From Sideroxydans sp. (GTDB lineage: Bacteria; Pseudomonadota; Gammaproteobacteria; Burkholderiales; Gallionellaceae): DNA of 38,803 nt. The number at the start of each line of letters is the position of its first letter. Position 1 is the stretch's first letter. Of the stretch, positions 7,688 to 26,329 are shown piece after piece. Made by a program: the position numbers and the translations under genes. The notes beneath the pieces are model-generated. The model worked only from the letters and a program-made list of their open reading frames with translations, made no database searches and was not told where the DNA came from. Where the stretch lies: assembly GCA_011620315.1 (NCBI GenBank), contig WOZO01000102.1:1-38803 (forward strand), in the 5' to 3' direction.

Positions 7688-7904
7688 CAGCGGCAGACAA
7701 AACGCCATACCCCGCTTGGGGGATGTGTCGCTTTCAGATTGACAATAGACTAGCCCAAGCGCGGTGTCGTCTATGTCCATGGCGAGTTCCGCGATGGCTG
7801 AGGAAGGCAAATGCGAAATATCGGCCGCAGGCAACATGACGGCAATGAAGCCTGTCGTGACCGGATCGATCCGATACCGGGACAAGGCTGAATGGGGGGT
7901 GATG

Positions 7905-8675
7905 ATGAATGTTCGAATGAATATAAGAATGGCTTTGCTTTCCGGCATGCTCGGATTGATGACCGCAGGTGCCTGCTTTGCCGATCAGACAATCGAGGTG
8001 GTCAAGTCGGAAGGGACGCTCAAAGTCGGCGAGCCGGACAAGCAAGCCTTTGATGCCAAGCTGAAGCCTCTGACGGGAAACCGTTATGTGTTCAGCACCG
8101 GTGCCAATGGCAGGGCGGTGGTCAGAGTGGGGAATTCCGGTTTTGTTGTCGTTGAACGGAACAGCTCGCTGGAAGTGGACCGCTCCAGCGGCGCGGCGAA
8201 TGTGTTCAGGCAGATCAGCGGCATGATCTATTACGCGATGAACAAGGTGCAGCGCTCCACGCAAAAGGTCAAGATCAAGACGACAACCGCCGTGATCGGT
8301 GTGCGGGGTACGCGCTTTGTGGTGGTGGAAGATGGCGCGCGCAAAGAGATCGGTATGCGCAAGGGCGAGATCAGCGTGACCAGTCCGCGCGATGAGTATG
8401 AGATACATCGCAAGCAAGCAGAAGACGAGTTCGCCGCACTCAAGAAAGAAGCAGCCGATGCGATTGCGGGCGAGCGGAAAGCGTTCGAAGACTATCGTAC
8501 AGACACAGCCAAAGAGTTCATCGAATACAAGCGCGCGTTCACGCTGGGCAAAGACAGAATGGTTTCCTTTGACGGCAACAAAGTCACGGAAGGCGCGCTC
8601 AACGAAAAGATGACGCGGGATATGGAAAGCCTGGAGTCGTTCGGGGCGGACTGGATAGGGACAGTGCGCGACTGA
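7905..8675 (+). CDS. Secreted FecR-domain protein with aromatic coiled-coil repeats
   Basis: This is a 256-residue exported protein. The start at 7905 (alternatives 7902 and 7917) follows a GGGGGG ribosome binding site and opens with a signal peptide ending near ACFADQ. The body has the FecR-type domain: a RAVVRVGNSGFVVVE strand block followed by TTTAVIGVRGTRFVVVEDG, which closely resembles the usual 'TPTAVIGVRGT' signature. The C-terminal third is a charged helix with aromatic residues spaced Y-11-F-18-F-11-F-7-F. The same spacing style appears at the N-terminus of the next gene's product. FecR domains of this periplasmic kind are not necessarily anti-sigma factors, and no sigma factor gene lies nearby. 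The exact role is unknown. A TTGACA at 7739-7744 upstream may be a -35 box, but no convincing -10 accompanies it. Confidence 0.8.
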   Translation: MNVRMNIRMALLSGMLGLMTAGACFADQTIEVVKSEGTLKVGEPDKQAFDAKLKPLTGNRYVFSTGANGRAVVRVGNSGFVVVERNSSLEVDRSSGAANVFRQISGMIYYAMNKVQRSTQKVKIKTTTAVIGVRGTRFVVVEDGARKEIGMRKGEISVTSPRDEYEIHRKQAEDEFAALKKEAADAIAGERKAFEDYRTDTAKEFIEYKRAFTLGKDRMVSFDGNKVTEGALNEKMTRDMESLESFGADWIGTVRD

Positions 8676-8771
8676 GTCGGACTCGCGTGCTGAAATCAAA
8701 TGGGGTACTTGGGCGAATCAATCGGGGGAGTGCGTCATGCATGATCTGATAGCGGCTGCGGGCTGTCTTGT

Positions 8772-10244
8772 ATGAAATCCGGCAATCACTATGCGCAGCT
8801 TGTGCTGTGCGGGATGCTCGCCGTTGCGCAAGGTGCGCTGGCTGCCGACGATTTTGAAAGTTACCGCCGCCAGCAACAGCAGGGCATACAGCATCAGCAG
8901 GCCGAGTTCCATGCATACCGCGAGCAGCAGGATGCCGAGTTCGCAGATTTCCTCAAGAGCCAGTGGCGCGAGTTCGAGAGTTTTCAGGGAAAGGTGCGCA
9001 TCAAAGAGCCCAAGCCGAAGCAAATACCCGTCGCCCCCACGGTAAGTCCGCCCAAGCAAACCATTGCACCGAAGCCGGTCGCGCTTGCGCCTCCGGTTCC
9101 GCCCGTGCCGCCCAAGCCGCTGCCGGGGGTGCCGGATACCTTGCAAGTCGACTTCTACGGCAACCGGTTCGACTTCGGTTTCGATCCGGCTTGGCAGCGT
9201 TACCGTTCCGGTGCGCAAGCGTCGGCGGAAGCGATGAGCGCATTCTGGACGATGATGAGCGGCAGCCGCTACGCGCAGACGCTGCAGGCCGTCGAACACG
9301 CAAAAGAACGATTCAAGCTGGACGACTGGGGGGAGGTCTCGCTCTGGCGAGAAATTGCTCAGTCACTGCAGCCCGGTCTCCGGACTGAGCAGAGCCTGTT
9401 GCTCTGGTACTTCCTGGTCAAATCCGGCTATGACGTGCGTTTGGGCTATGCCGGTAACGATGTCTATCTGTTCGTGGCGGTGCAGCAGCCGGTATACGCG
9501 ACGAAGTTCACACGGGTCGGCAATCAGACTTATTACGCCGTGCTGGCCGCGGATCGCGGCGACAGCATCGGGCGCTTCTACACTTATGAGGCCAACTATC
9601 CGGTCAAACTGAAAGCCGTAGATATCGGCTCGGCAGCCGTCGGCTTCTCCCGGGAAGCGCGCGCCGAGCGCACTTTGTCTTTCGCTTACAAAGCGCAGAC
9701 GGTGAAGCTGAACGTGTCGTATGACCGCCGCCTGGTCGAATATCTGGAAGGTTTTCCGCAGTCGGAGTTCGCGCTCTACTTCGATACCGCTGGCAGTTCA
9801 TTGCTCAGCCGCAGTCTGTTGGCGGAGCTGCGCAAATACACGGCAACGATGGGCGAACAGGAAGCGGTCAACTTTCTGCTGGCCTTTGCGCAGCGCGCTT
9901 TCGCCTACAAGACGGACAGGGAACAGTTCGGGCGGGAGAAATATTTCTTTATCGAAGAATCGCTGTACTTTCCCTACAACGACTGCGAAGACCGTTCGGT
10001 GATGTTCGCCTGGCTGGTGCGCGAGCTACTGGGGATGAAGGTGATCGGTTTGCTGTATCCGGGGCATATGACGACCGCTGTCGCGCTCGCGCAGCCGGGA
10101 AACAGCATGGCGAGCATCGAATATCACGGGCAGCGGTTCGTCATCGCCGACCCGACCTATATCGGCGCGACGGTCGGCATGGCGATGCCGGCCTATGCCG
10201 CGATCAAACCCGACCGGGTCGTGCCCATAAGGGGCGGACGCTAA
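8772..10244 (+). CDS. Secreted transglutaminase-like cysteine protein
   Basis: This 490-residue protein starts with a signal peptide (cleavage near GALAADD). A Gln/Glu-rich helical region follows, with Phe at 18-, 11- and 11-residue intervals, and then a proline-rich linker (about residues 78-120). The C-terminal half resembles a transglutaminase-like fold, with the triad in the right order: Cys405 in NDCEDRSVMFAWL, His432 in YPGHMTTAV and Asp460 in VIADPTY. Such folds act as cysteine peptidases or amidases, or as inactive binding domains; the substrate is not predictable. It follows the FecR-domain gene by 96 bp on the same strand and shares its aromatic-repeat helix, so the two may form one envelope complex. 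The ribosome binding site at 8772 is weak. I recognise no named family for the whole protein. Confidence 0.7.
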   Translation: MKSGNHYAQLVLCGMLAVAQGALAADDFESYRRQQQQGIQHQQAEFHAYREQQDAEFADFLKSQWREFESFQGKVRIKEPKPKQIPVAPTVSPPKQTIAPKPVALAPPVPPVPPKPLPGVPDTLQVDFYGNRFDFGFDPAWQRYRSGAQASAEAMSAFWTMMSGSRYAQTLQAVEHAKERFKLDDWGEVSLWREIAQSLQPGLRTEQSLLLWYFLVKSGYDVRLGYAGNDVYLFVAVQQPVYATKFTRVGNQTYYAVLAADRGDSIGRFYTYEANYPVKLKAVDIGSAAVGFSREARAERTLSFAYKAQTVKLNVSYDRRLVEYLEGFPQSEFALYFDTAGSSLLSRSLLAELRKYTATMGEQEAVNFLLAFAQRAFAYKTDREQFGREKYFFIEESLYFPYNDCEDRSVMFAWLVRELLGMKVIGLLYPGHMTTAVALAQPGNSMASIEYHGQRFVIADPTYIGATVGMAMPAYAAIKPDRVVPIRGGR

Positions 10245-10434: not shown

Positions 10435-12441
10435 ATGAACGCAGCAAGTCTCTTGACGCTTGATGTAATGAATGGCGTGATCCTGTCCTGGATCATGCTC
10501 GGCGCGGTCGGCTTATGGCGGCGCGATACCCGTCTGATCACCCGTATTCTGTTTCCGCTCGGCGCGCTGGCCTCTTTGTCGCTGGCTGTGGCCGGCTTCA
10601 TGGCACTGGGCAGCGCGGCGCAGACGCTGGTGCTGCCGCTGGGGCTGCCGGAACTGCCTTTTCACCAGCGCCTGGATGCGCTGTCCGCCTTCTTCCTGAT
10701 CCTGCTCGGTGTCGCATCAACCGGCGTGTCGCTCTATGCCGGCGGATATTTCCGCCACATGGAGGGCAAGACGCTGGGCTTGCTCTGCCTCGAATATCAC
10801 GTGTTCCTCGCCGGCATGACGCTGGTGTTGCTGGCGGACGATGCCTATCTGTTCATGGTGGCGTGGGAGATGATGGCGCTGTCCTCGTATTTCCTGGTCA
10901 CCACCGACCACGCCGTGCCGGACATCCGCAAGGCGGGATTCCTGTATCTGCTGGTCGCGCACGTCGGCGCGATCGCCATCCTGCTCTGCTTCGGCGTGAT
11001 GCAGGGCGGCAACGGCATCGCTGCCTACACCTTCGACGCGATGCGCGCCGCGCCGCTGACGCCGTTCTGGGCCTCGGCCGCGTTCCTGCTGGCCCTGTTC
11101 GGCTTCGGCGCCAAGGCCGGCGTGCTGCCGCTGCACGTGTGGTTGCCGGAGGCGCACCCGGCCGCGCCGTCGCCGGTGTCGGCACTGATGAGCGGCGTGA
11201 TGCTGAAGACCGCAATCTACGGCATCCTGCGCGTCAGCTTCGACCTGCTGCCGCTGCAACTGTGGTGGTGGGGCGTGCTGGCGCTGGGGCTGGGGCTGGC
11301 CACTGCCGTGTTCGGCGTGATGTTCGCCGCCGTGCAGGGAGACATGAAACGCCTGCTGGCTTATTCCTCCATCGAGAACATCGGCCTGCTGCTGGTCGGC
11401 ATCGGTCTCACCCTGATCTTCCACGTGTACGGCAAGGACACGCTGGCCGCGCTGGCGCTGGCGGCGACGCTGTACCACAGTCTCAACCACGCCATGTTCA
11501 AGAGCCTGCTGTTCGTCGGCACCGGCTCCATCCTGCACGCCACCGGCGAGCGCAACATGGGACGGCTGGGCGGGCTGATCCACCGCATGCCGTGGGCATC
11601 GGTGCTGATGCTGGTGGGTGTGCTGGCCATCGCCGGCCTGCCGCCGCTCAACGGCTTCGTGTCGGAATGGCTGCTGCTGCAGGCCTTCCTGCTGTCGCCG
11701 GGCCTGTCCAACAATTACATCAACATGCTGGTGCCGGTGGCAGCAGCCGTGATCGCGCTGGCGGCGGCGCTGGCCGCTTACGTGATGGTCAAGTTCTACG
11801 GCGTGATCTTTCTTGGCCAGCGGCGCGATCCGGGGCTGGCGCATGCGCACGATGCCGGCCGCATGGAGCGCACCGGCATGGTGTGGCTGGCGCTGGCCTG
11901 CGTGGCGCTGGGCCTGTTCCCGGTGTTCGTGCTGGGGCAGATCGATCATGTGGCGCAATCCCTGCTCGGTACGCGGCTGGGCAACGCCAGCGCCGACTGG
12001 ATGTTCCTGGCTCCGGTGGATACCGACCGCGCCAGCTACAGCCCGCTGTATTTCCTGCTGGCGGTGGCGGGCGTGACGGGACTTTCCGTGTTGCTGGTGC
12101 ACCGTCTGTACCACGGTCGTCTGCGTCGCGGAGCGGCGTGGGACTGCGGTTTTCCGGCGCAGACCGCGCGCATGCAGGATAGCGCCGAAGGTTTCGGCCA
12201 GCCGATCCGGCGCATCTTCGAGCCCTTCTTCCGCATCGAGCGCGAAGTGCCCGGCGCGCTCGACACGCGTCCGAAATATCACGGACGCAGCGATGACAAG
12301 CTGTGGTTCCTGCTGTATCTGCCGCTGCGCGATCTGACCGAGAAGCTGTCCGGCTGGGTGTCGCTGCTGCAGCACGGGCGCATCCACCTGTATCTCACTT
12401 ATACCTTCGCCACGCTGGTCGTGCTGCTGATCTTCGTATGA
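10435..12441 (+). CDS. hyfB: Hydrogenase-4 component B-like antiporter subunit
   Basis: This is a large, hydrophobic membrane subunit of the Mrp-antiporter/NuoL family, 668 residues against about 672 for E. coli HyfB. It is expected to sit at the distal end of the membrane arm and move protons or Na+. The family signature HVWLPEAHP lies at residues 234-242, followed by AAPSPVSALMSGVMLKTAIY; KRLLAYSSIENIG and YHSLNHAMFKSLLF are also typical. The long C-terminal extension holds further hydrophobic segments, as in HyfB and HycC. It is the first gene of a compact operon, and its TGA overlaps the next gene's ATG. With hyfF it gives this complex two antiporter-type subunits. Confidence 0.9.
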   Translation: MNAASLLTLDVMNGVILSWIMLGAVGLWRRDTRLITRILFPLGALASLSLAVAGFMALGSAAQTLVLPLGLPELPFHQRLDALSAFFLILLGVASTGVSLYAGGYFRHMEGKTLGLLCLEYHVFLAGMTLVLLADDAYLFMVAWEMMALSSYFLVTTDHAVPDIRKAGFLYLLVAHVGAIAILLCFGVMQGGNGIAAYTFDAMRAAPLTPFWASAAFLLALFGFGAKAGVLPLHVWLPEAHPAAPSPVSALMSGVMLKTAIYGILRVSFDLLPLQLWWWGVLALGLGLATAVFGVMFAAVQGDMKRLLAYSSIENIGLLLVGIGLTLIFHVYGKDTLAALALAATLYHSLNHAMFKSLLFVGTGSILHATGERNMGRLGGLIHRMPWASVLMLVGVLAIAGLPPLNGFVSEWLLLQAFLLSPGLSNNYINMLVPVAAAVIALAAALAAYVMVKFYGVIFLGQRRDPGLAHAHDAGRMERTGMVWLALACVALGLFPVFVLGQIDHVAQSLLGTRLGNASADWMFLAPVDTDRASYSPLYFLLAVAGVTGLSVLLVHRLYHGRLRRGAAWDCGFPAQTARMQDSAEGFGQPIRRIFEPFFRIEREVPGALDTRPKYHGRSDDKLWFLLYLPLRDLTEKLSGWVSLLQHGRIHLYLTYTFATLVVLLIFV

Positions 12442-15528: not shown

Positions 15529-17076
15529 ATGCCGATCAAACATCCCGATCTGAAACTGCGCCGTCTGACTGATACCGTGCCCGCCTGGCAGGGCGAGACC
15601 GTGCCGGCGGCGTTGCCCGAGATCTGCATGCAGGTGCGCGACGGCGGCGGTCGCCTGGTCGCGCTGTGGGGCAGCGACCAGCGCCAGCAGGCGCGCGGCT
15701 ATGTCCTGCATGTGACGCTGATGAACGAATCCGGTCTGGTCTGCCTGCATGTGCCCCTGCCGGAAGCACACCCGCACTATCCCGACATCAGCGAGATATT
15801 CCCCGCCGCAGCGCGCATGCAGCGCGCGGCCTATGACCTGCTCGGCATCCACGCGCAGGGAGCACGCGACCACCGCAAGTGGCTGCACCACGGTGTCTGG
15901 CACGGCGGCAGCTTCCCGTTGCGCAAGGATTTCGATGCGGCCGCCAGCCTCACCCGCGAAGCGGATGACTATCCCTTCGTGCAGGTGGAGGGACAGGGTG
16001 TGCACGAGATCCCGGTGGGGCCGGTGCATGCGGGCATCATCGAGCCTGGGCATTTCCGTTTCTCCATCATCGGCGAGCGCGTGCTGCGGCTGGAGGAGCG
16101 TCTGGGCTACACGCACAAGGGCACCGAAAAACGTTTTGAGAGCATGACGCTGCAGCAGGGGGCGAAGCTCGCGGGACGCGTCAGCGGCGACAACACGGTG
16201 GCGTACGCCTGGGCCTATGCCATGGCGGCGGAAAGCATTGCCGGTGTGACGCCGCCCGGTCGCGCGCTGTGGCTGCGCGCGCTGCTGCTGGAGCGCGAGC
16301 GCGTCGCCAACCATCTGGGCGATCTCGGCTATCTGGGCAACGACGTGGCGCTGTCGTTCGGCTTCGCCCAGTTCTGGATATTGAAGGAGCAGGTGCTGCG
16401 CCACAACGCCGCCCTGTTTGGACACCGTTACCTGATGGATAAGATCGTGCCGGGCGGCGTCGCCTGCGACCTGACGCAGGACGGGCGGCAGGTCATCGCC
16501 GAGGAATGCGCCATGCTGGAACGCGAGGTGCGCCTGCTGCGCAGCATCTACGACGAACATGCGGGCGTGCAGGATCGTTTCATCGGTGCCGGCCGGGTCG
16601 AGCCCAAACTGGCCGCGCAGCTCGGCCTGTGCGGCATGGCCGGGCGTGCCAGCGCGCAGGCGTGGGACGCGCGCGTGCAGTTCGCCGCCGCGCCCTACGA
16701 CAGGCTGGACGTGAAGATGGCGACCTACCGCAACGGCGACGTGGCGGCGCGCGTCATCGTGCGTTTCGACGAGTTGCTCGAATCGTTGCGTTTGCAGCGC
16801 GAGATCATTGGGCGCCTGCTCGGTGACGATCTGGTGCGGCCCTTGCCAACCTTGCCCGGCAACGGCTTCGGCATCGGTCTGGTGGAAGGCTGGCGCGGCG
16901 AGGTGCTGGTGGCGATGCATACCGACGCGGAGGGCAAGCTGGCGCGCGTGCACCCGCACGACCCTTCCTGGCAGAACTGGCCGGTGCTGGAGCACGCCAT
17001 CCTGAACGACATCGTGCCCGATTTCCCGCTCATCAATAAATCGTTCAACCTGAGTTATTCCGGACAGGATCTGTAG
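15529..17076 (+). CDS. hyfG: HyfG-like large subunit lacking NiFe ligands
   Basis: This 515-residue fusion has an N-terminal NuoC-like part (PHYPDISEIFPAAARMQRAAYDLLGI region) and a NuoD/HycE-like part. True group-4 hydrogenases bind the NiFe site through two CxxC motifs. Here the first (RVCGxC in hydrogenases) reads RVSGDN, with Ser219 and Asn222 in place of the cysteines. The second (DPCxxC) reads DPSWQN, with Ser480 and Asn483. The protein has no CxxC anywhere, and no maturation protease is encoded nearby. It therefore cannot carry a normal NiFe centre and resembles the Ehr-type (energy-converting hydrogenase-related) large subunits or complex I NuoCD. The partner reaction is unknown. It starts 6 bp after hyfF, and 8 bp separate its stop from hyfI. 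Confidence 0.88.
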   Translation: MPIKHPDLKLRRLTDTVPAWQGETVPAALPEICMQVRDGGGRLVALWGSDQRQQARGYVLHVTLMNESGLVCLHVPLPEAHPHYPDISEIFPAAARMQRAAYDLLGIHAQGARDHRKWLHHGVWHGGSFPLRKDFDAAASLTREADDYPFVQVEGQGVHEIPVGPVHAGIIEPGHFRFSIIGERVLRLEERLGYTHKGTEKRFESMTLQQGAKLAGRVSGDNTVAYAWAYAMAAESIAGVTPPGRALWLRALLLERERVANHLGDLGYLGNDVALSFGFAQFWILKEQVLRHNAALFGHRYLMDKIVPGGVACDLTQDGRQVIAEECAMLEREVRLLRSIYDEHAGVQDRFIGAGRVEPKLAAQLGLCGMAGRASAQAWDARVQFAAAPYDRLDVKMATYRNGDVAARVIVRFDELLESLRLQREIIGRLLGDDLVRPLPTLPGNGFGIGLVEGWRGEVLVAMHTDAEGKLARVHPHDPSWQNWPVLEHAILNDIVPDFPLINKSFNLSYSGQDL

Positions 17077-19630: not shown

Positions 19631-20362
19631 ATGAGCTTGTACGCCATAGACCGCGACACCGGAATCACCTTGTATGCACAGATTGCAGAAGTGCTGGAGC
19701 GCGAATACGTGCGTCAGGGCTCGCCCGGCGACCGACTGCCCGCAGAAGGCGAGTTGGCGGCGCGCTTCGGTGTGAACCGTCACACCCTGCGCCGCGCGGT
19801 GGATGAGCTGATCATCGAGGGCCTGCTGGAGCGGCAACACGGCGTGGGCATCTTCATCACCGACCGCCTGCTCGACTACCGCGTCGGCAGCGGCACACGC
19901 TTCACCCAGACACTGGCCGAGATCGGCATCGCCACCGATACCAAGGTGGTCCGCAAGATGGTGGCACCTGCCTCGTCGGGTGTGGCCAAGCATCTGGCCA
20001 TCGGGGCCGACGAAGACGTGTTGTGGATAGAGACGCTGCGCATCGCAGACGGCATGCCATTTTGCGTGATTTCGCACTTCCTGCCGGTGACGCCGTATCG
20101 CGAACTGCTGGAGGACTACCAGAGCGGATCGCTGCACGCATTGCTGAACCAGCACTGCGGGAATCTGCGACGTACCGAGAGTCTGGTCACTGCCGTCATG
20201 CCGCAGGGCGACGACGCGAAACTGCTGGGCATCACCCAGCACCGGCCCGTGCTGCGGGTCAAGAGTCTGAACGTACTCGAACACGATGCGACACCGGTCG
20301 AGTACGCCATCACACGGTTCCGGGCTGACCGGATCCAACTTTGCATCACCCCGACCCAGTAA
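19631..20362 (+). CDS. phnF: GntR/HutC-family phosphonate regulator PhnF
   Basis: This 243-residue repressor has an N-terminal winged helix-turn-helix (LYAQIAEVLEREYV, then LPAEGELAARFGVNRHTLRR and GVGIFI) and a C-terminal UTRA ligand-binding domain ending in the ITRFRADRIQL motif usual for HutC-type proteins. Length and position at the head of the phn cluster fit PhnF. It is expected to repress the C-P lyase genes and to release DNA on binding a phosphonate-related or phosphate-related ligand. The same near-palindrome precedes both phnF and phnG. The gene ends 34 bp before phnD. Confidence 0.92.
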   Translation: MSLYAIDRDTGITLYAQIAEVLEREYVRQGSPGDRLPAEGELAARFGVNRHTLRRAVDELIIEGLLERQHGVGIFITDRLLDYRVGSGTRFTQTLAEIGIATDTKVVRKMVAPASSGVAKHLAIGADEDVLWIETLRIADGMPFCVISHFLPVTPYRELLEDYQSGSLHALLNQHCGNLRRTESLVTAVMPQGDDAKLLGITQHRPVLRVKSLNVLEHDATPVEYAITRFRADRIQLCITPTQ

Positions 20363-20396
20363 CACCTTTTTATCTTTCCAGACAGGAGCCTCACAA

Positions 20397-21329
20397 ATGA
20401 AACTCAAGCAAATCTTATTCTCAGCATTGCTCTGTACCGCGATGGTCGCACCCCAGATCATGGCAGCCGCCATGCAGGACGGCAGCAAGGCACACCCCTT
20501 GCGCGTCATGTTGATCCCCGCCGACGGCGGTACCGAAGACGGTACCAAGGCGGACTTTCTGCCGATCTTCAACGCGGTGACCAGATCCACCGGCCTGCAT
20601 TTCGACATCCGCGTGGGCCAGAGCTACAGCGCCGTGATGGAAGCCATGTGTCTGAAGCAGACCGAGATCGCCTTCTTCGGCGCTGCAAGCTACATCCCGG
20701 TGCGCGACAAGGGCTGCGCCAAGCTGCTCGCCGTTGCAGTGCACAAAGGTGCTTCCGTGTACCACTCCGGCATCTTCGCGAGCACGAATTCTTCTTACAA
20801 AAGCCTGAAGGATACGAAAGGTGCGCGTCTGGCGCTGGGCGATGTGAATTCGACATCGAGCTTCGTCTATCCGGTGGCCATGCTGATGGATGCGGGTGTC
20901 GATCCGGCACGTGACATGGGGCAGGTGGTGATCACCGGCAGCCATGCCAACTCGCTCAAAGCGGTAGCGGAAGGCAAGGCAGACCTGAGCGGCGCATCGT
21001 TCGACTCCTTCGAGAAAGCCGTGAAGCAGGGTGCAATCGATCCGACCAAGGTGCGCGTGCTGGCCAAGAGCGAGCCTATCCCCCAGCCGCCGCTGGCGAT
21101 GTCGACAGCGCTGCCTAAAAAGATCCAGCAGAAGCTGAAGGATGCTTTCAACACCGTGCACAAGGCACCTGGCGTCACGCCCGACATGATCCGCGGTTAC
21201 GGTGGTTCGAAAGTGGACCGCTACGATGCAGACTTCCCGGAATCCGGCATGGATGCACCCGGCAAGAAGCTGGCATTGGTGGACGACCAGGTGAAGGCTG
21301 AACTGCTCAAGAAAGCAGCCCAACGCTAA
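20397..21329 (+). CDS. phnD: Phosphonate ABC transporter substrate-binding protein
   Basis: This 310-residue periplasmic binding protein captures phosphonates (or phosphite/phosphate) for the PhnCE importer. It has a signal peptide (MKLKQILFSALLCTAMVAPQ, cleavage near MAAAM) and a PhnD-type body: LRVMLIPADGGT, VGQSYSAVMEAMCLKQTEIAFFG, GDVNSTSSFVYPVAM and LSGASFDSFEK. These contain the serine/threonine-rich phosphonate-binding loops. The start at 20397 follows AGGAGCC and begins exactly at the signal peptide. A perfect 38-bp palindrome follows the stop, so phnD transcripts may be more abundant or stable than those of downstream genes, as is usual for binding-protein genes. Confidence 0.95.
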   Translation: MKLKQILFSALLCTAMVAPQIMAAAMQDGSKAHPLRVMLIPADGGTEDGTKADFLPIFNAVTRSTGLHFDIRVGQSYSAVMEAMCLKQTEIAFFGAASYIPVRDKGCAKLLAVAVHKGASVYHSGIFASTNSSYKSLKDTKGARLALGDVNSTSSFVYPVAMLMDAGVDPARDMGQVVITGSHANSLKAVAEGKADLSGASFDSFEKAVKQGAIDPTKVRVLAKSEPIPQPPLAMSTALPKKIQQKLKDAFNTVHKAPGVTPDMIRGYGGSKVDRYDADFPESGMDAPGKKLALVDDQVKAELLKKAAQR

Positions 21330-21331
21330 AC

Positions 21332-21369
21332 ACAGAACAGCCGCCCGCAATTGCGGGCGGCTGTTCTGT
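21332..21369 (+). terminator. Perfect 38-bp palindrome between phnD and phnC
   Basis: Positions 21332-21350 and 21351-21369 are exact reverse complements (19-bp arms meeting at CAATTG). In RNA this would form a very stable GC-rich hairpin with an A-rich left flank and a T-rich right end. It starts 2 bases after the phnD stop. It could be a partial terminator or a 3'-protective structure lowering phnC relative to phnD expression. Confidence 0.75.
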
Positions 21370-21395
21370 CATCAGCTATTGAAGAGGAAATAAAC

Positions 21396-22199
21396 ATGCT
21401 GAGATTCGATAGTGTCTACAAACGTTTTCCGGATGGCACGGAAGCGTTGAGGAATATCTCGTTGCACGTACCCAAAGGCCAGTTCTGTGTGCTGCTCGGC
21501 CCGTCCGGCGCGGGCAAATCCACCTTGCTGCGCATGCTTAACGGCTTGTCCAGTCCGACTGAAGGCAGTGTCCATCTGGCAGGCGAACGGATCACCGAGC
21601 GATCGGTGCAGCGGTTGCGCAAACGCGTCGCAACGGTGCACCAGCAATTCAATCTGACGCCGCGCATGTCGGTGGCGCTCAACGTGCTGTCAGGCGCATT
21701 GCCGCAGGTCGCCCATTGGCGTGCAGCGATAGGTCTGTTCCCACCAGAGTTGCGTCAGAAGGCCTGTCGCCTGCTGGATGAGGTCGGTCTGACTCCCGAA
21801 CATGTGAACCGCCGCGTCTCCGAACTATCGGGCGGGCAACAGCAGCGCGTCGGCATCGCGCGCGCCTTCATGATGGATCCGGCGGTATTGCTGGCCGATG
21901 AACCGGTCGCCAGCCTAGATCCGCGTATCAGTCGCGGCATCCTGGAATTGCTGCATCGCCAATCGCGCAACCACGACACCACTGTGCTGTGCAGCCTGCA
22001 CCAGCCCGAACTGGCACGCGAGTTCGGCGACCGCATCATCGCGGTCAATCAGGGGCGTCTGGTATTCGACGGTACACCGGCGCAACTCACCGACAAGGTC
22101 TGCGAGGAGCTGTATCACGGTGCACTGGCTCACAAACACGATGCACCGGAAGTGGATGAAGCCGCGTGCGAACCCGAACTGGAACTGGCTGCGGCCTGA
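21396..22199 (+). CDS. phnC: Phosphonate ABC transporter ATP-binding protein
   Basis: This 267-residue ATPase powers phosphonate import through PhnE. It has a Walker A (GPSGAGKST), a Q-loop (VHQQFNLTPRMS), the ABC signature (LSGGQQQRVGIARA), a Walker B with catalytic glutamate (VLLADEPVASLDP) and an H-loop (LCSLHQPELA). The start at 21396 is set by GAGGAA seven bases upstream. The acidic C-terminal tail after GALAHKHD is not needed for the fold. phnE follows with 1 bp between stop and start. Confidence 0.95.
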   Translation: MLRFDSVYKRFPDGTEALRNISLHVPKGQFCVLLGPSGAGKSTLLRMLNGLSSPTEGSVHLAGERITERSVQRLRKRVATVHQQFNLTPRMSVALNVLSGALPQVAHWRAAIGLFPPELRQKACRLLDEVGLTPEHVNRRVSELSGGQQQRVGIARAFMMDPAVLLADEPVASLDPRISRGILELLHRQSRNHDTTVLCSLHQPELAREFGDRIIAVNQGRLVFDGTPAQLTDKVCEELYHGALAHKHDAPEVDEAACEPELELAAA

Positions 22200-22200
22200 G

Positions 22201-23220
22201 ATGAATATGATGAAAAACCTGTCAGTGAATCGCGATGCCACATGGCATCTGGACCAGCCCTATAACGCGCGACATCTGATGTTCGCCATCGCCGCCCTGC
22301 TGATACTCGCAGTGACCGGGAGCCGCATGGAAGTGCCGCGTATGGTGCAGGAGACCGCGCAGGGAGTCGGCTACGCCGTCGGCCTGAACGAAGAATCCTC
22401 CGTGGCCACCGGCGTGAAGCGCATCGCCGAATCGATCTGGCCGCTGCGCATCTCCGAAGAGATCGAGGTCTCGCGCATCGAGAATTTCGACCGCAACGAT
22501 CTGCCCTGGCTCTCGCATGTGGAAGTGATCGAATCGCGCACGCCGCACTTGAATACCGAGACGCTGCAATTGGAGGAGACCGTCGAGAGCAAAGAGATGC
22601 TGGTCAAGCCGGTCGGCTATCTGATGCATGTGCTGCTCAAGATGCTGGAAACGCTGGAAATGGCGCTGTGGGGGACGATACTGGCTGTGCTGTTGTCGAT
22701 CCCGTTGGCATGTTTCGCCGCGGCCAACTATGCGCCCAACCGCTTCATCTACAACCTGGCGCGTTCCACCATCAGCCTGTTCCGTGCGATTCCGGAACTG
22801 GTCAGCGCACTGTTCCTGGTGCTGGCATTCGGCTTCGGCCCCATCGCCGGTTTTCTGGCGCTGGGCATCCATAGTGCGGGCTTCCTCGGCAAGTTCTACG
22901 CGGAAGACATCGAGAACGCCGATCACGGCCCGCAGGAGGCGTTGCAATCCATCGGTGCGGGACAGATCAAGACGCTCTGGTATGGCGTGTTGCCGCAAGT
23001 CCTGCCGCAGTACATCGCCTACACGCTCTACATCCTCGACCGCAACATCCGCATGGCCACGGTGATCGGCATCGTCGGGGCGGGCGGCATCGGGCTTGAG
23101 CTGAAAGGGCGCTTCGACATGTTCAACTTCGACCACGTCGGCACCATTCTGGTGATCATCTTCCTGACCGTGATCATCCTCGACCAATTCTCGGCGAGAT
23201 TGCGCAGCCGGTTGATGTAG
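22201..23220 (+). CDS. phnE: Phosphonate ABC transporter permease with long periplasmic loop
   Basis: This is the membrane permease of the phosphonate importer. The C-terminal two thirds contain the standard fold: MALWGTILAVLLSIPLACFAA, ISLFRAIPELVSALFLVL and the EAA coupling motif region EALQSIGAGQIKTLWYGVLPQ, then GIVGAGGIG. It is 339 residues, longer than the usual 260-290. The extra length is a roughly 100-residue polar segment between the first transmembrane helix (about 22-40) and the core, rich in Glu and with no cysteines, predicted to face the periplasm. The start at 22201 has in-frame alternatives at 22207 and 22210, and the ribosome binding site is weak, suggesting translational coupling to phnC. 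Confidence 0.92.
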   Translation: MNMMKNLSVNRDATWHLDQPYNARHLMFAIAALLILAVTGSRMEVPRMVQETAQGVGYAVGLNEESSVATGVKRIAESIWPLRISEEIEVSRIENFDRNDLPWLSHVEVIESRTPHLNTETLQLEETVESKEMLVKPVGYLMHVLLKMLETLEMALWGTILAVLLSIPLACFAAANYAPNRFIYNLARSTISLFRAIPELVSALFLVLAFGFGPIAGFLALGIHSAGFLGKFYAEDIENADHGPQEALQSIGAGQIKTLWYGVLPQVLPQYIAYTLYILDRNIRMATVIGIVGAGGIGLELKGRFDMFNFDHVGTILVIIFLTVIILDQFSARLRSRLM

Positions 23221-23225
23221 GAGTT

Positions 23226-23246
23226 CCTGCCTGTTTTTCAGGCAGG
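23226..23246 (+). terminator. Perfect hairpin after phnE
   Basis: CCTGCCTG (23226-23233), a TTTTT loop and CAGGCAGG (23239-23246) form an 8-bp perfect stem 5 bases after the phnE stop. No T-run follows on the plus strand, so it is not a classic intrinsic terminator. It separates the transporter genes from the C-P lyase genes and precedes the second operator copy. Confidence 0.5.
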
Positions 23247-23261
23247 GAAAGCAAACTTGTA

Positions 23262-23271
23262 TAGACATCTA
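23262..23271 (+). promoter_or_regulatory. Candidate PhnF operator before phnG
   Basis: This is the second copy of TAGACATCTA, identical to the one before phnF. It overlaps TATAGA (23260-23265 area), which could serve as a -10 element, and lies about 30 bases before the preferred phnG start. This implies an internal PhnF-controlled promoter for the lyase genes. Confidence 0.6.
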
Positions 23272-23300
23272 ACAGCATGGCAGCACAAGGAAGAATGAAT

Positions 23301-23765
23301 ATGAACGTAGCAAGAAATGAATGGGCGGCCGCGCTGTGCGCATTGCCCGCCGCCGAAGTGAAACATCTGGCCAACGTGCTGTCTGGTGAACTGGAAGTTC
23401 GCGACGTCGCACTGCCGCACGCAGGACTGGGGCTGTTGAACCTGCGCGACGGCGCGTTCGAAGAATCCTATTTCATCGGCGAGATCCCGGTGGCGCGCGC
23501 CGAAGTGATCGTGCGCAGCGCAGCGGGTGTGGAAGAACGCGGCGGCGCATTGATCGTGGACGACCGCGCGCAGTTCGCGCGCTCCATCGCCATCCTCGAT
23601 GCGGTACTGGCCGGCAAGCTGCCCGGCAGCGTAGCGGCCATGGCGCTGGTGCAGCGCGGCATGCAAGTGCGCCGGCAAAAACAAAGTGAACGTAAAAAAC
23701 TGCTGGCCGCGACGCGCGTGGATTTCTCGCTGTTGGGACAAGAGGACGACGAAGATGAAGAGTGA
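23301..23765 (+). CDS. phnG: C-P lyase core subunit PhnG
   Basis: This 154-residue PhnG is part of the PhnGHIJ core complex that, with PhnI, transfers phosphonate to the ribose C1' of ATP. Typical features are RNEWAAALCALPAAEVKHLA at the N-terminus, then RDGAFEESYFIGEIPVARAEV and the C-terminal KLLAATRVDFSLL. The start at 23301 is preferred because AAGGA lies about nine bases upstream; in-frame ATGs at 23277 and 23295 are alternatives. It overlaps phnH by 11 bp. Confidence 0.92.
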   Translation: MNVARNEWAAALCALPAAEVKHLANVLSGELEVRDVALPHAGLGLLNLRDGAFEESYFIGEIPVARAEVIVRSAAGVEERGGALIVDDRAQFARSIAILDAVLAGKLPGSVAAMALVQRGMQVRRQKQSERKKLLAATRVDFSLLGQEDDEDEE

Positions 23766-24327
23766 AATGACGATGGCCGAAGCCGACATCTGGCATCCGG
23801 CACAACAGCAGCAACTGTTCCGCAGCCTGCTCGATGCGTACAGCTATCCGGGGCGCATCCAGACCTGCCCGGCAGAGCCGAGCCTGGCTTTGCTGAGCGC
23901 GCTGCTGGACGGACAGACCACCTTGTCCGATCCGCAAGACCTGCTGCCGGAATCCATCTGGCCGAAACTGGAAGCGCAGCGTGTGCCATACGAACTGGCT
24001 GCCTTCATCCTGCTGGACGGCAGCCGCGCGCCGCAAATGGTGCCGAACCTCGGCACACTGGAAGCACCGGAACATGGCGCGACCCTGCTGTTGCGCGTCG
24101 CATCACTGCATGAAGAAAGCGCGGGCGCATTGTGCTTGCAATTGAGCGGCCCCGGCATCCGCCAGTCGGTCACTATCAGCGTCGATGGTCTGCATGCGGA
24201 CTGGATCAAGGCGCGCAACGACTGGGTGAGCAACTTCCCGCTCGGTGTGGAACTGGTGCTGTGTGACGCACAATGTTTCGTCGCACTGCCGCGCACCACG
24301 AAGATCGTGTTGGGAGGTTCGGCATGA
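23755..24327 (+). CDS. phnH: C-P lyase core subunit PhnH
   Basis: This is the PhnH core subunit, 190 residues (E. coli 194). It forms the outer part of the PhnGHIJ assembly and has a PLP-transferase-like fold without the cofactor. Visible features are HPAQQQQLFRSLLDAYSYPG near the N-terminus and the terminal GVELVLCDAQCFVALPRTTKI, both usual for PhnH. The chosen start overlaps phnG; ATGs at 23767 and 23773 are possible alternatives with better-placed GAAGAG. Its TGA overlaps the phnI ATG. Confidence 0.92.
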   Translation: MKSEMTMAEADIWHPAQQQQLFRSLLDAYSYPGRIQTCPAEPSLALLSALLDGQTTLSDPQDLLPESIWPKLEAQRVPYELAAFILLDGSRAPQMVPNLGTLEAPEHGATLLLRVASLHEESAGALCLQLSGPGIRQSVTISVDGLHADWIKARNDWVSNFPLGVELVLCDAQCFVALPRTTKIVLGGSA

Positions 24328-25436
24328 GTTACGTCGCGATCAAAGGCGGCAAGGCTGCCATCGACGGTGCAGCAGCGACCACCGATTACCTGCGTTGCAA
24401 AGGTGGACTGCAAGAGCCGCTGACGCTGGCGATGATAGAAGAGCAGTTGCGCTTGCTCACTTCGCGCGTGGTGTCGGAAGGCGGCTTGTACCACCCGCGT
24501 CTGGCCGCACTGGCACTCAAGCAGTTCCAGGGCGACACACTGGAAGCGGCATTCGCCTTGCGTGCTTACCGTTCCACCAAACCGCGCCTGCTCGAATCGC
24601 CGGTGCAGGACACAGCCAACATGCGCTGCATCCGCCGCATCTCGTCCGCGTTCAAAGAAGTGCCGGGCGGACAGTATCTGGGTGCGACCTACGACTACGC
24701 ATTGCGCCTGCTGCAACTCGATCTCGCCAATGAAGACCCGGCGGCGTTCAAAGCCGTGGCGAAAAGTTTCCTGCAAGACACGCCGGATAGCGAAGTGCCG
24801 GACAACTTCCCCAAGGTGATCGACGCGTTGCGTGCCGAAGGTCTGCTGCCGCCGGTCGCACCGAGCCGTGCTGCCGCATTCGACATCACGCGCGACCCGC
24901 TGGTGTTCCCGGTGCCGCGTTCCGCAGCACTGGCCACCATGGCGCGCGCCGAGACCGGCGGCCTGCTGGCGATGGCGTATTCCAATATGCGCGGTTACGG
25001 CGATGTGCACCCCACGGTGGCGGAACTGCGCGTCGGTTATCTGCCGGTGATGTTGCCGCATCCGGTGACGGGCGAACTGATGGAAGCGGGCGAAGTGCTG
25101 GTCACCGAATGTGAAGTGGTGGCGATGTACGAAGGCACGAACGGCGACGAGTTGCCCACTTTCACGCTCGGCTACGGCGCGTGCTTCGGCCACAACGAAG
25201 TGAAGGCGATCAGCATGGCGATCCTGGACCGTGCGCTGCAGAAAGGCATGCAAGACGGCCCCACCAATCCTTCGGAAGATCCCGAGTTCGTATTGCTGCA
25301 TGTGGACGGTGTGGACTCGATGGGCTTCGCCTCGCACTACAAGATGCCGCACTACGTGACCTTCCAGTCCGACATGGACCGTCTGCGCACCACGCAACAG
25401 AAGATGAAAGAGCAAGACACGGAGGAGACAGCATGA
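24324..25436 (+). CDS. phnI: C-P lyase core subunit PhnI
   Basis: This 370-residue PhnI is the nucleosidase-like subunit that, with PhnG, PhnH and PhnL, exchanges the adenine of ATP for methylphosphonate to make ribose 1-methylphosphonate 5-triphosphate. Recognisable blocks are YVAIKGGKAAI at the start, TARGETs such as GGLYHPRLAALALKQFQGD, DTANMRCIRRISSAFKEVPG, the GYLPVMLPHPVTGE strand block and LGYGACFGHNE-VKAISMAILD. A GGGAGG ribosome binding site precedes the start at 24324, and ATGA overlaps join it to phnH and to phnJ. Confidence 0.95.
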   Translation: MSYVAIKGGKAAIDGAAATTDYLRCKGGLQEPLTLAMIEEQLRLLTSRVVSEGGLYHPRLAALALKQFQGDTLEAAFALRAYRSTKPRLLESPVQDTANMRCIRRISSAFKEVPGGQYLGATYDYALRLLQLDLANEDPAAFKAVAKSFLQDTPDSEVPDNFPKVIDALRAEGLLPPVAPSRAAAFDITRDPLVFPVPRSAALATMARAETGGLLAMAYSNMRGYGDVHPTVAELRVGYLPVMLPHPVTGELMEAGEVLVTECEVVAMYEGTNGDELPTFTLGYGACFGHNEVKAISMAILDRALQKGMQDGPTNPSEDPEFVLLHVDGVDSMGFASHYKMPHYVTFQSDMDRLRTTQQKMKEQDTEETA

Positions 25437-26329
25437 ACGCGCATTACGAATTGCCGCTGGAAGACGCGGGCTACTCCTTCGGCTTCCTCGACGAGTACGC
25501 CAAGAAGGAAGTGCGTCGCTGCATCCTGAAAGCAATCTCCATCCCCGGTTACCAGACGCCTTACGCCTCGCGCGAGATGCCGATGGGGCGCGGTTTCGGT
25601 ACCGGCGGTCTGCAACTCACGCTGTCGCTGATCGGCGAAGACGATACGTTGAAAGTGATCGACCAAGGTTCGGACGACTCCGTGAACGCGGTGAACCTGC
25701 GCCAGTTCGTGCAGCTCACCTGTCCCGGCGTGGACGTCACCGAGAAGACGCAGGAGGCGACGCTGATCCAGTCACGCCACCGCATCCCCGAGAAGATGCT
25801 CACTGAAGAACAGATTCTGGTGCTGCAAGTGCCCTATCCCGATGCGCTGGTGGTGGTCGAGCCGTCGGAAGCGCGACGCAAAGTCATGCACGGCGAAGCG
25901 GACTACTCGCGCCTGCTGGTCAAGTTGTACGAGGACGTGGTGCGCTTCGACGAGATTACCATCTCGCACCGTTACCCCACACGCATCAACGGTCACTATG
26001 TGATCGATCCGTCACCCATCCCGCGCTGGGACGTGCCGCGTCTGCATCAGTCGCCCGCCTTGGTGCTGCTCGGTGCAGGTCGCGAAAAGAAGATCTACGC
26101 CGTGCCGCCCTACACCGTGGCCGAGCCGCTGGTGTTCGACGACATCGCCTTCCGTGTGGAAGATTTCCGCGATGCGAACGGCCAGCGCATCGCCTGCCGC
26201 TGCTGCGGTTCGACCGTGAGCTTCCTGGACGAACTGATCGACGACGCGGGCAACATCACCCATCAATGTTCCGATTCCACGTACTGCGAGGAACAACAGG
26301 AAACCATCAGCGCAAGGAAACGAGCATGA
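25433..26329 (+). CDS. phnJ: C-P lyase catalytic subunit PhnJ
   Basis: This is the radical-SAM-type enzyme that breaks the carbon-phosphorus bond, releasing the alkane (methane from methylphosphonate) and 5-phosphoribosyl 1,2-cyclic phosphate. At 298 residues it is slightly longer than E. coli PhnJ (281). The key cysteines are in the right layout: Cys255, Cys258, Cys279 and Cys285 (CxxC-x20-C-x5-C). In the family three hold the [4Fe-4S] cluster and the last forms the thiyl radical. An extra cysteine, Cys257, sits inside the first pair. MPMGRGFGTGGLQLTLSLIG is also conserved. Start/stop overlaps with phnI and phnK indicate coupled translation. Confidence 0.96.
   Translation: MNAHYELPLEDAGYSFGFLDEYAKKEVRRCILKAISIPGYQTPYASREMPMGRGFGTGGLQLTLSLIGEDDTLKVIDQGSDDSVNAVNLRQFVQLTCPGVDVTEKTQEATLIQSRHRIPEKMLTEEQILVLQVPYPDALVVVEPSEARRKVMHGEADYSRLLVKLYEDVVRFDEITISHRYPTRINGHYVIDPSPIPRWDVPRLHQSPALVLLGAGREKKIYAVPPYTVAEPLVFDDIAFRVEDFRDANGQRIACRCCGSTVSFLDELIDDAGNITHQCSDSTYCEEQQETISARKRA

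Follow-up and report, generated by a model that had tools for sequence, protein, structure and literature searches.

An open reading frame of Sideroxydans sp. (Gallionellaceae) raises the question of whether a protein built like the large subunit of a group 4 [NiFe] hydrogenase, and deprived of every cysteine ligand of the metal centre, can still be a hydrogenase, and of what the complex around it may do. The frame lies on the forward strand of contig WOZO01000102.1 (assembly GCA_011620315.1), of which positions 1 to 38,803 were analysed; this whole stretch of 38,803 nucleotides is called the window hereafter. Its product, HyfG, is probably the large one among the six subunits of a complex-I-like membrane assembly (hyfBCEFGI) of the energy-converting hydrogenase-related (Ehr) type, devoid of [NiFe] ligands and no hydrogenase. 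Ehr complexes were reportedly treated by Marreiros in 2013. Excerpts of more recent papers describe them as lacking the NiFe motifs and as being of unknown function (PMC10284858, PMC4378227, PMC12342949, PMC6349859), and they are also named in excerpts of PMC10432482 and PMC6688271. Redox-coupled ion translocation is suspected, for example in a passage of PMC6349859.

The hyfBCEFGI cassette

HyfG is encoded by the fifth of six co-directional genes that overlap or are separated by at most 8 bases (Table 1). For hyfC, the list of open reading frames holds a longer frame starting at 12303.

Table 1. Cassette genes and motifs of hyfG in the window
Feature	Position	Strand	Remarks
hyfB, antiporter-like membrane subunit, 668 aa	10435..12441	+	NF005086 911 bits, cut-off 667
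hyfC, NuoH-like membrane subunit, 320 aa	12438..13400	+	PF00146; start deduced from its 4-nt overlap with hyfB
hyfE, membrane subunit, 222 aa	13404..14072	+	NF008556 74.7 bits, below cut-off 136
hyfF, antiporter-like membrane subunit, 485 aa	14065..15522	+	NF005045 883 bits, cut-off 543
hyfG-like (Ehr/Hyq large subunit), 515 aa	15529..17076	+	NuoC-like N-terminal and NuoD-like C-terminal domains
First former ligand motif, codons 219-222	16183..16194	+	S-G-D-N for C-G-I-C; aligned to HycE C241/C244
DPSWQN, codons 480-483	16966..16977	+	Non-ligand; aligned to HycE RAATYANW
Second former ligand motif, codons 509-512	17053..17064	+	S-Y-S-G for C-Y-S-C; aligned to HycE C531/C534
hyfI, NuoB-like subunit, 171 aa	17085..17600	+	PF01058

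Pfam recognises the Complex1_30kDa and Complex1_49kDa domains in HyfG, and the nearest PDB sequence is 7z0s_E, the formate hydrogenlyase subunit 5 HycE of E. coli (phmmer, E 7.6e-54). An AlphaFold model, computed with the window sequence and 68 of the 80 related loci (60-82% identical) as input, has a mean pLDDT of 81.4, with values below 50 in the pocket segments 147-197 and 501-512. Its top fold match is again 7z0s_E (TM-score 0.83 by query, 26% identity). A first-pass annotation of this DNA had assigned the protein to the hydrogenase-4-like large subunits (HycE/NuoCD family), and the Pfam domains together with the best sequence and fold matches bear this out. The NuoD subunit of complex I is encoded separately in the same genome.

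The partner HyfI keeps the four cysteines of a proximal 4Fe-4S cluster (positions 54, 57, 121 and 151), the first two being CxxC-spaced as in hydrogenases; it counts 171 residues versus 252 in E. coli HyfI, the C-terminal extension being missing. No HyfA/HyfH-type ferredoxin or dehydrogenase subunit is present in the window cassette. What defines Ehr is assembled here, namely a group-4-like large subunit without NiFe ligands, accompanied by NuoB-, NuoH- and antiporter-like subunits.

On the upstream side, a FecR-domain protein (Pfam) and a 490-aa protein without family match occupy positions 7764-10244 before hyfB. Five loci likewise have both before hyfB, and a sixth has just the 490-aa protein there. 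A glucokinase gene flanks the cassette downstream and, beyond it and a 282-aa protein, the open reading frames at 19631-26329 resemble a phosphonate/C-P lyase cluster; from their translations, we take them to be phnF, phnD, phnC, phnE and phnG to phnJ.

Loss of the four cysteine ligands

The MAFFT alignment places RVSGDN (217-222) of HyfG opposite RVCGIC of HycE, so that C241 and C244 correspond to S219 and N222. The cysteines C531 and C534 face S509 and G512, in the last 12 residues of HyfG, KSFNLSYSGQDL. The two CxxC motifs of group 4 [NiFe] hydrogenases are thus replaced at all four positions, and the protein contains five cysteines, none of them within a CxxC, as the first-pass annotation had stated. 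The latter was also right in reading RVSGDN as the first ligand motif, with Ser219 and Asn222 at the cysteine positions, and erred in locating the second at DPSWQN (Ser480, Asn483). Indeed, phmmer and MAFFT both put DPSWQN on RAATYANW of HycE, a region where the Asn column holds Asn and the Ser column Thr in 11/11 true hydrogenase rows. Its claim that four NiFe ligands are replaced therefore holds as far as the disappearance of all four cysteines is concerned, the replacements being S, N, S and G and the second pair belonging to SYSG.

The columns were compared over 130 Ehr-type rows, window included, which amount to 129 genes, L113 and L163 being the same gene. They read S/S/S/G in 103 rows, S/T/S/G in 10 and other combinations in 17. 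After thinning at 85% identity (98 rows), the four columns hold S in 95, S in 82 and T in 8, S in 94, and G in 97 rows, respectively. CxxC at the first site occurs in none of the 130 rows. A single cysteine is kept at one ligand column in three rows standing for two genes, L104 (genome G003) with C/S/A/G and L113/L163 (genome G064) with S/C/S/G. Asn at the second ligand column is found in the window only, where the codon is AAC; the six near relatives read have AGC, coding for Ser. The Ser/Asn pair formerly described at both sites is thus an artefact, because the second motif was misplaced and the N222 substitution is private to the window genome among the rows examined. As an argument for selection, the pair is ruled out by the alignment of DPSWQN to RAATYANW. 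The conservation of DPSWQN in the 80 loci is itself partly selected, since the peptide HDPSWQNW was one of the six used to find these relatives; the loci drawn from the phylum are free of that bias. Alignment with hydrogenases confirms the absence of the four cysteines, and the same four-position pattern appears in other assemblies.

Absence of the maturation tail

The C-terminal tail of [NiFe] large subunits is the part cut off by maturation proteases. Among these, HycI and HyfK are named in an excerpt of PMC7654741. The extension on which HycI-type processing acts in HycE and HyfG of E. coli is missing from the window protein, whose chain stops three residues past the last ligand column. The same end is found in 130/130 Ehr rows, with the sequence x-D-L in 125, versus 34-35 residues past the last ligand in 11/11 hydrogenases (E. 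coli HycE and HyfG plus nine loci). This chain end, usually x-D-L, separates Ehr from hydrogenases in the present data. Concordantly, none of the 130 Ehr loci, 79 of which span at least 11 kb and the others less, has a match to HycI, HycH, HyfJ or Hyp proteins at E<=1e-4, versus 9/9 hydrogenase loci with HycI/HycH/HyfJ and both ferredoxin subunits, and 7/9 with Hyp genes.

An unusual hydrogenase would have to hold Ni and Fe on non-cysteine ligands and borrow the Hyp machinery of the genome. HypC and HypF are indeed encoded there, and Hyq, to which HyfG is related, was published as an endo-hydrogenase (PMC2650096, excerpt). Nevertheless, such an enzyme is very improbable, because the four ligands and the maturation tail are missing and because the Hyp proteins have other possible targets in the genome, namely a further [NiFe] large subunit on contig C122 and a partial one on C215. 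HyfG is a predicted member of the Ehr (Hyq) class, assigned from its sequence, without [NiFe]-centre ligands and no hydrogenase.

Selection, phylogeny and distribution

Compared with eight relatives, hyfG evolves with a dN/dS of 0.12-0.21, and the range over all six cassette genes is 0.06-0.28, which therefore indicates selection and not decay. The earlier view that the replacements reflect selection is in this way upheld by the rates and by six open reading frames. A decaying hydrogenase or a sequencing artefact, for which the one private substitution S222N could be quoted, has a negligible probability given purifying selection on six genes and the presence of the same four-position pattern in other assemblies. 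Both a decaying gene and an artefact were rejected on these grounds.

A quick maximum-likelihood tree of 100 rows, to which hydrogenases contribute only 7, NuoD only 2 and published Ehr references none, and in which long branches were flagged, gathers the hydrogenases in one group (SH-aLRT 99), NuoD being the outgroup. The Ehr proteins form one group with L137 outermost (SH-aLRT 96; 100 without L137). Ligand loss and a position apart from hydrogenases and NuoD agree with the first-pass proposal of an Ehr-type relative. L137 (genome G416) is a divergent Ehr subtype from the window's family, 34% identical, with ligand columns S/D/S/G, hyfG near 8208-9503 and a NuoI/HyfH-like ferredoxin gene immediately downstream of it.

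Matches at E<=1e-40 were obtained in 73/398 Pseudomonadota genomes sampled. In ten of them identity is 29-31%: the four cysteines are all present in the nine whose sequences were read, and the tenth (G258), with the same bit score as G199, is counted with the four-cysteine hydrogenases by score. An Ehr-type large subunit is consequently assigned to 63/398 genomes, from the ligand columns in 41 and from the score in the other 22. The window's family matches in 28/60 genomes, or 27 without the divergent G416. Plasmids contribute 77 matching records, mainly from Rhizobium, Azospirillum, Cupriavidus, Paraburkholderia and Burkholderia, with few enterobacterial ones. The 80 named loci are the best 80 of 585 relatives.

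Residues lost and kept in the pocket

The quinone-headgroup residues of complex I are absent, H224 and Y273 of NuoCD (H38 and Y87 of Nqo4) being replaced by I171 and G220; Ile and Gly are each found at these positions in 128/130 rows. A complex-I-like quinone cavity, as the first-pass annotation had envisaged, is hence not supported. A quinone reductase resembling complex I with a shortened arm would fit the NuoD-like fold of HyfG and its NuoH-like partner HyfC, but the family-wide loss of the headgroup His and Tyr, together with a HyfI proximal cluster of the hydrogenase-type CxxC instead of the tandem CC of NuoB, renders it quite improbable.

Glutamate E172, by contrast with these losses, aligns to MbhL E21 and is conserved in 99% of the thinned set of 98 rows. 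According to an excerpt of PMC7684303, E21 plays a key part in the reduction of protons by MBH and has no counterpart in MBS. Other residues conserved in Ehr and different in the hydrogenases examined include D221, N261, D265, H299, D304, D478, N503, K504 and N507.

Genes beside the cassette

Clustering of the flanking open reading frames gave the SulP transporter (PF00916) as the cluster found in most loci. The count covers ninety loci, each with a distinct Ehr protein, hyfB and 1.5 kb or more of upstream sequence. It is restricted to relatives of those SulP and carbonic anhydrase genes that had been identified before, over stretches of unequal length: SulP stands on the same strand at most 1.5 kb before hyfB in 20/90, a carbonic anhydrase homologue lies anywhere in the fetched stretch in 9/90, and one or both are present in 22/90, nearly all within one set of close relatives. 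The gap between SulP and hyfB is 33-305 bases in 19 loci and 1041 in one. At L049, on the same contig as L182, SulP lies 1 kb from hyfB with an opposite-strand open reading frame between them. The SulPs beside hyfB form five groups that share no more than 35% identity, a single group accounting for 15 of the 20, and the trait needs 13 changes on the tree, at least 8 of them forced by well-supported branches (fragment hit L024 included). Six SulPs were scanned; two score above the sulfate-permease cut-off (TIGR00815) and none above that of BicA, so that their cargo may be sulfate instead of bicarbonate.

Most of the linked loci belong to the similarity-ranked set, whose record titles are largely betaproteobacterial. 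Among the phylum-drawn loci with enough upstream sequence, SulP is found in 1/26 (L141), and a further phylum genome (G270, locus L186) has a gamma-carbonic anhydrase before the cassette. In the family sample, 4/27 Ehr genomes have a SulP neighbour versus about 0.01 expected from SulP density, a guide only, as related genomes are taken as independent and SulP gene numbers were merged by hand. Neither SulP nor carbonic anhydrase was found beside the window cassette or those of its nearest tree relatives, and in the window's genome PF00916 is matched solely on a different contig, C105.

Three kinds of carbonic anhydrase homologue occur. A CsoSCA-related protein is present in five loci (TIGR02701 40 bits, far under the cut-off of 241; PDB CsoSCA, E 0.0045), and a beta-type homologue in one (NF007756 78 bits, below cut-off). 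Gamma-type homologues, found in L186 (identical to L150), L182, L051 and L056, are nearest to the CcmM/carbonic anhydrase models NF053794 and NF040597, below cut-off, and to gamma-class PDB entries with E down to 1e-29. All four display three histidines at the alignment positions of the zinc ligands of the Methanosarcina-type gamma-carbonic anhydrase.

Two arrangements deserve a description of their own. In L182 (8346-16338; Gallionellales), a SulP, a CcmM/Cam-like gamma-carbonic anhydrase, a 237-aa protein, two further SulPs and an opposite-strand open reading frame are followed by hyfBCEFGI. In L150/L186, hyfB is directly preceded on the same strand by genes for a gamma-carbonic anhydrase and for an anion transporter of the DASS/CitMHS type that carries TrkA_C domains. 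This putative counterpart of the SulP arrangement thus uses a different family of transporter. Separately, an XRE-type regulator of 180-190 aa precedes the cassette in L162, L163 and L164 (family f39), its HTH and cupin domains being recognised by Pfam in L162 and by eye in L163 and L164.

An association of Ehr with RuBisCO is seen at the genome level. Over the 398 genomes, 39 have both Ehr and RuBisCO, 24 Ehr only, 59 RuBisCO only and 276 neither (odds ratio 7.6, p 4e-12), and the counts without family f39 are 15, 17, 26 and 266 (p 3e-7), in statistics that ignore common descent and with RuBisCO called at E<=1e-100 plus six partial genes, weaker RuBisCO-like matches being dropped. At this cut, 24/63 phylum Ehr genomes are without RuBisCO. 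For A. caldus, an excerpt of PMC3826726 describes a hyf cluster that directly adjoins a beta-carbonic anhydrase gene and is interpreted as a hydrogenase; it also reports that the core hyf genes co-occur with carbon-fixation genes. This is the one carbonic anhydrase remark among the matches listed in the literature search, in which no published link between Ehr/hyf and SulP was recognised. The genomic context, with SulP and carbonic anhydrase beside the cassette, thus appears to be the new element, and this neighbourhood lead, comprising SulP and three kinds of carbonic anhydrase homologue, makes the Ehr class testable.

Proposed role of the complex

In the Ehr complex proposed here, a proton-coupled event would take place in the pocket between HyfG, HyfI and HyfC. 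The single Fe-S cluster, with an external partner, would sense or drive this event, which would be linked to protons or sodium moving via HyfB and HyfF. In lithoautotrophic relatives, such a machine, working with SulP and carbonic anhydrases, might tentatively be seen as helping to take up or energise inorganic carbon or a different anion. A bolder and slightly more doubtful version would make the Ehr/Hyq hexamer the ion-driven part of the inorganic-carbon (or related anion) supply of lithoautotrophs, with the emptied, proton-connected pocket gating or energising the handling of CO2/bicarbonate. If that were true, the endo-hydrogenase phenotype of Azorhizobium would not be due to H2 oxidation. 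A lithotrophic role has been argued against, because the Cupriavidus genome authors consider it very unlikely (PMC2864759, excerpt) and because detection of a group-4 subunit failed in H2-grown At. ferrooxidans (PMC7735108, excerpt).

The strongest competitor, plausible though short of an even chance, is a classical Ehr that receives its electrons from a soluble low-potential donor, be it ferredoxin or an unlinked dehydrogenase, docked on HyfI/HyfG. The electrons would pass to an acceptor within the pocket, with HyfB/HyfF pumping ions, and the carbon genes nearby would then be incidental. The Fe-S ligands and antiporter-like subunits are kept, and the related MBS of P. furiosus transfers electrons to polysulfide (PMC7684303, excerpt). 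However, the cassette has no electron-input subunit: HyfA/HyfH-type matches (E<=1e-4) exist in 4/130 rows, and directly downstream on the same strand in L137 only. Moreover, MBS has three clusters with a three-cysteine proximal one, whereas the window encodes a four-cysteine proximal cluster only. No recurrent gene for an electron donor or acceptor was recognised beside the cassette among the part of the flanking open reading frames that was family-scanned.

The complex could also run in reverse, the proton-motive force driving the reduction of a low-potential carrier that would supply N2 or CO2 fixation. This is unlikely, even though hyq of Azorhizobium is induced by NifA and a deletion mutant grows more slowly under diazotrophic conditions (PMC2650096, excerpt), and though Ehr co-occurs with RuBisCO and weakly with nifH. 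The nifH link amounts, in the same order as for RuBisCO, to 14/13/9/24 in the family (p 0.065, or 0.018 counting two partial nifH genes) and 11/52/27/308 in the phylum (p 0.03), so 52/63 Ehr genomes have no nifH over cut-off. No exact sigma54 -24/-12 match is found in the 190 bases before hyfB, and the whole window contains 10 such matches versus 8.4 expected. Coupling to nitrogen fixation was rejected as a general role of Ehr on account of the weak association and of these 52 genomes.

Comparison with known systems

The window cassette shares with Ehr complexes its group-4-hydrogenase-like subunits, the missing ligand cysteines and an antiporter-like membrane arm; nothing essential differs, N222 being a private variant of the window. 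Some Ehr complexes are thought to be paired with formate dehydrogenase (PMC6349859, excerpt), whereas the cassette here has no ferredoxin subunit. With E. coli HycE/HyfG (7z0s_E), HyfG has fold and domain order in common, but, unlike them, it has no cysteine ligands, no C-terminal tail and no HyfA/HyfH/HycI partners.

Like the window complex, MBS/MBX of P. furiosus (6u8y) includes a hydrogenase-like module in which the NiFe site and quinone residues are lost, according to an excerpt of PMC7684303. The same excerpt attributes to MBS two of the four cysteines, three clusters, a three-cysteine proximal cluster and no equivalent of MbhL E21. The window instead retains E172 and has four cysteines in HyfI with no HyfH/HyfA. 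The DAB2 CO2-uptake complex, described in an excerpt of PMC13144422, likewise possesses a PF00361-type proton-conducting membrane subunit and is found in chemolithoautotrophs, as is the Ehr cassette. Unlike DAB2, the window has no DabA (PF10070) match among its six cassette proteins, which sets it apart from the DAB/DAC systems, and no zinc site is recognised in HyfG. A functional resemblance of the Ehr cassette to DAB2 can be suggested as a hypothesis only, by analogy.

The closest counterparts are cassettes of the same six genes. Excerpts describe hyfBCEFGI in Cupriavidus metallidurans (PMC2864759), Acidithiobacillus ferrooxidans (PMC7735108) and Nitrospira, beside CO dehydrogenase in one comammox genome (PMC5596200). 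The six gene names and their order in C. metallidurans, At. ferrooxidans and the hyq operon of Azorhizobium are identical to those of the window, and the large subunit of C. metallidurans (L174) reads S/S/S/G with the same chain end as the window HyfG. Azorhizobium hyqRBCEFGI was published as a NifA-dependent Ni,Fe endo-hydrogenase whose deletion causes a diazotrophic growth deficit persisting with 20% H2 (PMC2650096, excerpt). Directly before hyfB, the window has the 490-aa protein without family match, which is not hyqR-like. Rhizobium johnstonii 3841, a strain that used to be classified as R. leguminosarum, carries the same six genes on pRL11 (L175), with a large subunit that reads S/S/S/G and has no tail. 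R. leguminosarum is named as the carrier of an orthologous hyq operon in the excerpt of PMC2650096. A Rhizobium relative of the published Hyq endo-hydrogenase is thus without the active site, and the reading of the Hyq family as hydrogenases needs re-examination because the L175 large subunit is without all four ligand cysteines.
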